Position numbers and translations under genes: made by a program
Source of the DNA: a virus
Direction: 5' to 3' (one strand)
Length of the DNA stretch: 23,918 nt
IMG/VR virus record: IMGVR_UViG_3300027687_000072
Coordinates: 1-23,918 of that record
Part shown: positions 11,925 to 23,300 of the stretch, piece after piece
Position numbering within the stretch: the first letter of the stretch is position 1
Layout of the letters: every line of letters starts with the position of its first letter
The notes under the pieces: model-generated
What the model saw: only the letters and a program-made list of their open reading frames with translations
Database searches by the model: none
What the model was told of the DNA's origin: nothing

Positions 11925-11948
11925 ACTTTTTTTAATTATAATACACTA

Positions 11949-11970
11949 GGGCACCATCAATATGATACCC
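11949..11970 (-). other. RNA hairpin in the leader of the ring-protein gene
   Basis: On the minus strand GGGTATCA (11970-11963) pairs with TGGTGCCC (11956-11949) around a 6-base loop. Two of the eight pairs are G-U, so the stem forms in minus-strand RNA but would carry mismatches in the opposite transcript. It is not followed by a uridine run, so a leader structure or mRNA-end structure fits better than a terminator. It lies 24 bases upstream of the ATG at 11924. Confidence 0.4.
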
Positions 11971-12001
11971 CAATATATTAGCATTACTTGCTTATACTCT
12001 A

Positions 12002-12030
12002 ATATAATCACATAGTTTTTTTAAAAACTA
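12002..12030 (-). promoter_or_regulatory. Repeated 29-bp intergenic element, copy B
   Basis: Read on the minus strand the element starts TAGTTTTT and ends TGTGATTATAT, with an A-tract between. It matches the element at 22989-23017 at 25 of 29 positions without gaps. It begins immediately after the TAG stop of the 279-residue gene and lies 77 bases upstream of the 271-residue ring gene. The outer parts TAGTTTTT and AAAAACTA form a perfect inverted repeat. An A/T-rich upstream element with a TATAT core suggests a phage promoter, but a short structured mRNA end is also possible. Confidence 0.45.
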
Positions 12031-12870
12031 CTAATTAAACTTTTTTTCTATGGATCTAAATACTTCTCCGCCTTCGTCGGTTTTAAAGTAAGCTGCCATT
12101 GCAGAGTACGGGTTTTCGTCAAATGGCACACTCATAAGCTTTCTGCCATTAGATGCCCAAGAAAATGTTCTTTGATCCTGCGACAAATTTATTATACCTG
12201 ACTCTGTTGCCTTAATTGCCAAATTGCGTAGCCCTACATTTTCATCTTGAGCTAATTCTAAAAATAATTCCGGGTTTGCATTTGCAAATAACCTTAGATC
12301 TCTTTTGATCTCCTTAGATGATAATTGATTTACCGAGGTACCCATTTCTACACGAAGGATTGCTTCGGCCTCATCAATATTCATTTCTCTTGCAATAACC
12401 GCTGCGTCTGTTTGTAAATCAAGCATTTCTAAATCATCGTATGCTTCCACCTCTGGGTCAAACTCGTCATATATTCTACCTTTTAAAGGGTGGTATAAAG
12501 ACAGCAGTTTTTGTAAATTTTGTTGTGTTTTAGAGACTTTTAAATCTCCGTCCCTAAACATAATATGCCCCATTGTAGCTTCTCCGTTCTGTTCTTCTTT
12601 AAAAGGGGAATCGTGGTTTGTTGCATATCTAAGTTCTTTTTGCTTACCTGTTTTGGGATCAAAATAAAGTAAAGCATGCTTTCGCGTATGCTTACCTGGT
12701 ATTGTTAAAGTTAAAGGAGTATGCCTACCTGTTAAGTAATATATCCTATCTTTAATTTCCCATTCTGGTTTAGCTGGTTCTTCTTTTTTGGCCGGCATCG
12801 GAGCTGTGTGTTCCTGCATAACCTCTTCTACTTTTTCGACTTTTTTAGTCACTGTTTTTTTATTTGCCAT
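12031..12870 (-). CDS. Conserved structural protein of unknown role downstream of major capsid gene, 279 aa
   Basis: The first 35 residues are a low-complexity Lys/Glu/Pro tail (KKTVTKKVEKVEEV). A beta-like block follows with YYLTGRHTPLTLTIPGKHTR and KHALLYFDPKTGKQKELRYA, then an acidic helical second half (about 125-279) including LQTDAAVIAREMNIDEAEAI. No catalytic motif is visible. It sits between the major capsid gene (81-base gap with a hairpin) and the neck genes, where crAss-like and related phages encode head-completion or auxiliary capsid proteins, so a minor head or neck component is the best guess. The leader is purely A/T (TTATATTATATT before ATG) and the stop is TAG. Confidence 0.6.
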   Translation of the reverse strand: MANKKTVTKKVEKVEEVMQEHTAPMPAKKEEPAKPEWEIKDRIYYLTGRHTPLTLTIPGKHTRKHALLYFDPKTGKQKELRYATNHDSPFKEEQNGEATMGHIMFRDGDLKVSKTQQNLQKLLSLYHPLKGRIYDEFDPEVEAYDDLEMLDLQTDAAVIAREMNIDEAEAILRVEMGTSVNQLSSKEIKRDLRLFANANPELFLELAQDENVGLRNLAIKATESGIINLSQDQRTFSWASNGRKLMSVPFDENPYSAMAAYFKTDEGGEVFRSIEKKFN

Positions 12871-12904
12871 AATATAATATAATTTAATAGTTTAAAAGTA
12901 ATAA

Positions 12905-12931
12905 TTACCCCCGTTGATATAACGAGGGTAA
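12905..12931 (-). terminator. Terminator-like hairpin after the major capsid gene
   Basis: On the minus strand TTACCCTCGTT (12931-12921) pairs with AACGGGGGTAA (12915-12905) across a 5-base loop, giving an 11-bp stem. One pair is U-G in minus-strand RNA and would be a C-A mismatch in plus-strand RNA, so the structure favours the direction in which the genes are read. It is followed by a moderately U-rich stretch (UUAUUACUUUUAAAC). It starts 20 bases after the capsid stop codon. It may terminate or attenuate transcription, or protect the 3' end of the capsid mRNA. Confidence 0.6.
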
Positions 12932-12951
12932 GAATTACATAATTTGAATCA

Positions 12952-15548: not shown

Positions 15549-15580
15549 GATATGATATTATATAATTATTAAATAGATAT

Positions 15581-22627: not shown

Positions 22628-22972
22628 TTAATATAATCTTGTTAAAGCGTAAGTTCCGCGAACGTCGCCAGTGTATTTTATAGAGATTGAATCTCTGGTT
22701 ATAAGTGTGTATTCTATTGTTACTTTGTATCCGTTGTCGGGGTTATGTAATCTAGTTGCAAAACTTGTTTCTCCCTCGTCAAATATTTCTTCAGTGATAA
22801 CATCCTGTTCTTCAAAAGAAGTATTAAAGCATTGTAGTACAGCGTAGTCTGACGCAAGTATTGTTTTTAAATAACTGCTTCCTTCGTTTTTCCATATTCC
22901 ATTAAATGCTTCTTGAGCTGTTAATGTTAATGACGTTAAAACTAAGCATAGTGTAATAAATAAATTTTTCAT
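22628..22972 (-). CDS. Small secreted protein with signal peptide, lipocalin-like mature domain, 114 aa
   Basis: Residues 1-19 form a classic signal peptide, with positive MKN then a hydrophobic core (LFITLCLVLTSLTL) and a TA-Q cleavage site after residue 19, a pattern common in Flavobacteriia. The mature part begins FNGIWKNEGS, a G-x-W start like small lipocalin-type beta-barrels, and continues as regular strands to VTIEYTLITRDSISIKYTGD and YALTRLY. One Cys (Cys48) remains in the mature protein, and there is no lipobox. It is presumably exported to the periplasm during infection; superinfection exclusion or envelope modification is possible but unsupported. A repeated promoter-like element lies 16 bases upstream of its ATG. 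Confidence 0.68.
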   Translation of the reverse strand: MKNLFITLCLVLTSLTLTAQEAFNGIWKNEGSSYLKTILASDYAVLQCFNTSFEEQDVITEEIFDEGETSFATRLHNPDNGYKVTIEYTLITRDSISIKYTGDVRGTYALTRLY

Positions 22973-22988
22973 AAGATTGGATTTTATT

Positions 22989-23017
22989 ATATAATCACAC
23001 GTTTTTTTGAAAAACTA
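22989..23017 (-). promoter_or_regulatory. Repeated 29-bp intergenic element, copy A
   Basis: Read on the minus strand the element starts TAGTTTTT and ends TGTGATTATAT, matching copy B (12002-12030) at 25 of 29 positions with identical spacing. It begins 4 bases after the TAA stop of the 92-residue gene and ends 16 bases before the ATG of the secreted-protein gene. The core runs on into TATAAT-like sequence (ATTATATAATA), so it may be a promoter with an upstream A/T tract; a transcript start would then give a very short leader. Confidence 0.45.
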
Positions 23018-23021
23018 TTTA

Positions 23022-23300
23022 TTATTCTCCTTTAGGTGGTATTTTGCCATCACCTTCTTCTGATTCGCCTGGAAATGTTACTTTAAACTCTGACGGCTTA
23101 CCCATTGTTTTACCCATAGACTCATCATAGCGCATATACCAAAAAGTTGGTTTGTCAAAAGCGGCTTCTTCGTAATCCTGCCAATATATAGTAACATCAC
23201 CTTTCCCTCTTGGAAGTCCTTTAGCAATAACTAGTCCTGATCTTTTTTCAGTAGCTATTTCTTTTTCAAAAAATTGATACCCTGTTATTATCTTCTGCAT
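23022..23300 (-). CDS. Hypothetical protein, 92 aa
   Basis: Not recognised. The sequence begins MQKIITGYQFFEKEIATEKR, followed by an aromatic, beta-like segment (VTIYWQDYEEAAFDKPTFWY) and a Pro/Gly/Glu-rich, probably flexible C-terminus (FPGESEEGDGKIPPKGE). No signal peptide, membrane segment or catalytic motif is seen. Its ATG shares TAATG with the stop of the upstream jelly-roll gene, so it is probably translated by coupling and may be an accessory or chaperone of that protein. Its stop is followed after 4 bases by the repeated intergenic element. Confidence 0.6.
   Translation of the reverse strand: MQKIITGYQFFEKEIATEKRSGLVIAKGLPRGKGDVTIYWQDYEEAAFDKPTFWYMRYDESMGKTMGKPSEFKVTFPGESEEGDGKIPPKGE

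Follow-up and report, generated by a model that had tools for sequence, protein, structure and literature searches.

Two copies of one element in the late-gene block

What is a 29-base sequence that occurs twice among the late genes of a phage, each time just past a stop codon? We addressed this question in a window of 23,918 bases, i.e., the whole stretch of DNA analyzed here, which represents the extent of the known sequence of this phage genome. This window covers part of the late-gene region of a marine podovirus, to which phi38:1, elemo, and MW202828 are related. Its late genes lie on the minus strand, with PHROG matches to a terminase, a portal, and other virion proteins, and its nearest named relatives are MW202828, the Flavobacterium elemo phages, and Cellulophaga phage phi38:1 (Pervagoviridae), with phi46:3 (Pachyviridae) more distant. 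The core late-gene order is the same in the window and in these named relatives. A first guess of a crAss-like phage was rejected, as no crAss-like name appeared among the matches listed for the terminase and capsid, which comprised elemo, Cellulophaga, Tenacibaculum, and Maribacter phages along with MW202828. Bacterial contigs with similar terminases came from metagenome-assembled genomes (MAGs) and were assigned to Bacteroidota more often than to anything else, MAG binning being weak evidence. Shine-Dalgarno motifs were not enriched in the clade (23 vs 21 of 790 starts), as expected for Bacteroidota-type hosts. In one related contig (G038:C1:41111-43213, the contig of locus L131), the terminase frame is split into three overlapping pieces.

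Both copies are on the minus strand: copy A (TAGTTTTTCAAAAAAACGTGTGATTATAT) at 22989-23017 and copy B (TAGTTTTTAAAAAAACTATGTGATTATAT) at 12002-12030. They are identical at 25 of 29 positions without gaps, and the pair tops the list of repeats in the window. Copy A starts 4 bases past a TAA stop codon (23022-23024) and copy B directly after a TAG stop codon (12031-12033). The gaps that contain them (49 and 106 bp) rank among the three longest of the window, together with one of 81 bp. Second-order Markov simulation of the window produced a direct pair of 29-mers with at least 25 matches in only 1 of 235 runs, and the complete record contains TGTGATTATAT at exactly two places. The original prediction, that two similar copies placed in longer gaps just behind stop codons are unlikely to be due to chance, was thus borne out. 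Its suggestion that the element divides the late genes into units also agrees with the gene content, since copy A heads a unit that begins with a 114-aa gene and continues towards the terminase and portal, while copy B heads the tail unit, the first gene of which encodes 271 aa.

The element recurs between genes across the clade

A search for further copies in relatives had been set beforehand as a test of this prediction, and such copies were present. In loci around terminase relatives, the same core was found between genes, and these loci were used to train a matrix. A first motif search, which included gaps with a second, ATG-adjacent element (see below), drifted to that element, and the search was repeated leaving these gaps out. 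The matrix was then evaluated on capsid-gene loci from 42 relatives, which have almost no 40-mers in common with the training loci. This test set yielded 40 intergenic matches on the sense strand (3.05/kb) and 0 on the antisense strand, compared to 12 matches per one million coding positions inside genes on both strands (0.012/kb), i.e., a rate ~250-fold lower. Loci around the sigma gene described below showed the same polarity (88 sense vs 1 antisense matches), and nearly every site of the element stood in a tandem gap (154 vs 1 in a divergent gap). Within the window, copies A and B scored 18.9 (the best score) and 13.6, respectively; equally good matches in coding sequence, which would have spoken against a signal, were looked for, and the next-best match to either copy reached 20/29, with none as good inside genes. 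At the junction corresponding to copy B (site B), the core was detected in most of 21 relatives, and L062 and L065 lack it.

The element is bipartite, with a GTAAA box (ATAGT or GTAGT in the window), ~15 bases, and then the core ACNNGTRAYWATA. Among 114 non-redundant sites, GTAAA stood 19 bases from the core G in 10 and 20 bases in 28, so that a third of the sites (38/114) carried an exact GTAAA at one of these two offsets, and at any other offset it was found in ≤2 sites. The matrix did not cover this box, which hence provides independent support. Aligned to the GTAAA position of relatives, for which the offset peak is 19-20, copy A displays the −35-like box ATAGT at 23014-23018 and the extended −10-like core GTGATTATA at 22990-22998, both on the minus strand. 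In copy B, the corresponding box GTAGT lies at 12027-12031, its G being the last base of the upstream stop codon, and the same core GTGATTATA lies at 12003-12011 (both minus strand). The two conserved ends that had been noticed in the repeat thus coincide with the two boxes, the TAGTTTTT end lying on the upstream box and TGTGATTATAT on the core. On sequence grounds, GTAAA and a core at fixed spacing represent promoter anatomy, a −35 plus an extended −10, and a conserved two-box element that is intergenic, on the sense strand, and fixed in its spacing is what would be seen for a phage sigma-dependent promoter class. The two repeats accordingly read as copies of a putative gene start signal common to a very common marine phage group.

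The element takes the place of host-type promoters

The −7 box of flavobacterial housekeeping (sigma-A) promoters is TAnnTTTG (PMC9723704). In phi38:1, elemoA, and MW202828, the portal-scaffold junction and those on either side of the 279-aa gene, i.e., the capsid-279 and 279-271 junctions, mostly contain this box, often following a terminator hairpin. Gaps with TAnnTTTG were more frequent in sense than in antisense orientation in MW202828 (12/5), phi38:1 (8/2), and elemoA (12/5), as well as in two sister contigs of 65 and 62 kb (9/2 and 15/4), and the element was absent from all five. Contigs of the window clade, by contrast, displayed 0-3 sense TAnnTTTG gaps vs 1-6 element gaps, and the TAnnTTTG box (−12 to −5) was absent from copies A and B, as from almost all gaps of the clade. 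Over whole records, counts indicated one promoter type or the other.

Classified records with a terminase identity below ~68% were of the host type and almost all of those above ~71% of the phage type, with three records at 71-73% (L288, L295, and L296) owing their host-type label to one match each. On a terminase tree of 99 rows, promoter type required 2 changes, where the labels of short fragments are based on one or two gaps each and are noisy, and the phage label includes the ATG-adjacent element. An E. coli-type promoter scan of the region (TTGACA/TATAAT, spacing 16-18) yielded 49 matches vs 48.5 expected, and the conserved boxes of the element differ from those of E. coli-type sigma-70 promoters. 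A host-type promoter set has been swapped for another within one phage lineage. The exchange at the same gene junctions, together with recurrence in relatives and sense-only intergenic placement of two boxes at fixed spacing, argues for the phage-specific promoter originally proposed.

A sigma-70 family protein is the likely reader

Long contigs of the clade encode, for example at G003:C1:38439-39200, a 250-253-aa protein of the sigma-70 family in their replication module (PHROG 351, E = 3e-21; PDB profile search, E = 4e-9). Its AlphaFold model (mean pLDDT 76) matched sigma-A chains with a Foldseek probability of 1.00, and Pfam regions 2 (E = 2e-6) and 4 (E = 7e-4) were detected in different members, three of four Pfam matches being below the curated cut-off. 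Regions 2 and 4 and the sigma fold place this candidate reader in the sigma-70 family. PHROG 351 was found in 5/6 long clade contigs and 0/4 complete named relatives, and the near-complete sister contigs of host-promoter type (G060:C66 and G061:C8) have no sigma gene, while G062:C28 (terminase 72%) does. Conversely, the terminase in 34/35 sigma-bearing contigs is similar to that of the window, with 71-77% identity in nearly all. Further contigs yielded no match in the sigma searches; the six that were checked (G009 and G013-G017) contained no replication gene at all and look like late-only fragments, so that the missing sigma gene is uninformative there. The sigma gene is thus a feature of the clade, the record of the window ending before the replication module, and the phage of the window would be expected to encode it as well. 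In one contig (G002:C1:891-11497 and 67371-76963), the replication module is present twice as diverged copies, which may represent an assembly chimera of two related phages.

The element stands ≤150 bases after the sigma gene in 72/77 loci and just before it in 0, so that the sigma gene lies ahead of its presumed promoter class. Taken together, we consider the element to be a phage-specific late promoter, read by the clade's own sigma-70 factor with the host core polymerase, with a probability of about 0.78. In this model, a −35-like box (GTAAA, here RTAGT) and the extended −10-like core ACNNGTRAYWATA, with the core G 19-20 bases from the start of the box, would direct post-early (late) transcription, and the reader would most likely be the sigma-70 factor of the replication module acting with host core RNA polymerase.

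It is rather unlikely that the promoter is instead read by a housekeeping or alternative sigma factor of the host, perhaps aided by a small phage activator, while the phage-encoded factor recognizes a different promoter class, for example the ATG-adjacent element. The early promoters of the clade also differ from TAnnTTTG, which could mean that the sigma factor of the real host is unusual, and co-occurrence of the element with the sigma gene does not prove which protein reads it. However, element and sigma gene occur together in one lineage and are both missing in sister phages, the element stands behind the sigma gene and in no case ahead of it, and its boxes misfit the flavobacterial consensus (PMC9723704).

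More improbable still is that the element works in the RNA of a long late transcript, as a processing or mRNA-stability site making new intergenic 5′ ends. Such a site could also be sense-only and confined to gaps between same-strand genes, where nearly all copies stand, and a stable hairpin does lie downstream at site B. Yet copy A does not fold, and a constant distance of 19-20 bases between two boxes, with the spacer free to vary, is better explained by a sigma factor bound to DNA than by folded RNA. Relatives have ordinary promoters in the syntenic gaps, and in some genes the core extends right up to the ATG, so that there is no leader left to process. Of the original alternative "promoter or processing site", the promoter half is thus retained and a processing site appears less likely. 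Finally, a terminator or hairpin in which TAGTTTTT pairs with AAAAACTA can be dismissed: copy B can fold TAGTTTTTAAAAAAACTA and stands after a stop codon, but G-C pairs are nearly absent from this stem and no T run follows it, unlike the G/C-rich stem and T run of an intrinsic terminator, the pairing of copy A is no better than that of shuffles, relatives keep the outer boxes and not the pairing, and a terminator scan does not report the element.

Comparison with known promoters and sigma switches

An Rfam search returned no match, and no account of such a promoter or sigma factor in flavobacterial phages was found among the open papers searched. The putative promoter shares gene junctions, orientation, two-box layout, and short leaders with the flavobacterial sigma-A promoters of phi38:1, elemoA, and MW202828, from which it differs in having no TTTG, a GTRAYWATA core, and a GTAAA upstream box; these phages do not carry the element, and TAnnTTTG is missing from almost all gaps of the window clade. 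Compared to the E. coli extended −10 promoter, in an alignment of our own, it has the equivalent of G at −14, A at −11, T at −7, and a start ~7 bases past the −10 hexamer, but its −35 box is GTAAA or GTAG and not TTGACA, position −15 is not T, and its core includes an extra conserved AC at −18/−17.

Phage sigma-factor switches are known from SPO1 (gp28 and gp33/34) and T4 (gp55). As in these phages, a phage sigma factor coincides here with a phage promoter class for later genes, the differences being a 250-aa sigma-70 protein of predicted function with regions 2 and 4, a two-box promoter, and phages of Bacteroidota. Uncultured relatives thereby gain a concrete promoter consensus and a likely reader, and the matrix allows operon maps to be drawn from metagenomic contigs. 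In Bacteroidota, a sigma factor and promoter pair that takes no account of host promoters could also be developed into an expression tool.

Transcription start and ATG-adjacent elements

Numbering the invariant A of the core −11 and its invariant T −7 places the core G at −14, and transcription would start ~14 bases downstream of this G. The start codon is no closer than 13-14 bases to the core G, except in one of the 114 sites (11 bases), there is a small peak at this shortest distance, and the ATG is at exactly +14 in 8 sigma loci. This suggests that the start predicted from the core is the A of the start codon in some genes, and that some messages may be leaderless. For copy A, the predicted start is 22984, 12 bases ahead of the ATG at 22972, and for copy B it is 11997. 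A second, weaker core in the copy B gap (GCAAGTAATGCTAATATA, 11974-11991, minus strand, score 8.4) sits just before a hairpin, where the core of relatives stands in the same gap.

Other junctions carry the ATG-adjacent A/T element, which is 21-26 bases long and kept in dozens of relatives. Before the scaffold gene, in the portal-scaffold gap, it is represented by ATTTAATAATTATATAATATCATATC (15549-15574, minus strand; ~38 relatives). This stretch includes an 11-base match to the A/T core at 15556-15566 that had been set aside as possibly due to chance, and which instead belongs to a separate, conserved element. Before the 279-aa gene, it is represented by ACTATTAAATTATATTATATT (12871-12891, minus strand), also conserved in relatives, and at both genes "ACTATTTAATTATATTATATT-ATG" or close variants abut the start codon. 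The core of this element looks like the promoter core minus its G, and no upstream box was seen. Its role may be that of a strong, nearly leaderless promoter or of a signal for translation start.

Early genes of the clade (G003:C1:28104-36334, locus L092, and sigma loci L109-L187) display another sense-strand motif, approximately TTACAAACTAAATACGA...GATAATATAAATGTAAC. In the form GATAATAT, it was found in 192/878 upstream regions vs 13 on the antisense strand, and it is also unlike the flavobacterial TAnnTTTG. A wholly private promoter code for early and late genes, under which transcription at entry may need a particle-carried factor, is conceivable but unlikely. Two ~2,700-3,300-aa giant virion proteins tested had no recognizable RNA polymerase domain; under a private code, the carried factor could be, for example, a packaged sigma factor or an unrecognized polymerase in this giant protein.

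Hairpins at late-gene junctions

Between copy B and the 271-aa gene, a strong hairpin at 11940-11979 (minus strand) could be a leader stem-loop or the terminator of the upstream unit, and the surrounding region (11925-12000) folds at −24.9 kcal/mol (z = −5.7). A G/C-rich hairpin occupies the same place in nearly all relatives, where the right half of the core is itself often part of the pairing. Our guess is that the message of the tail block begins with this stem-loop. A terminator-like hairpin also lies between the capsid gene and the 279-aa gene (12898-12938, minus strand, z = −4.9). In the distant relative phi46:3 (L106), small opposite-strand genes stand inside the late block (record positions 53168-55387 and 48911-49207), including in the gap equivalent to site B.
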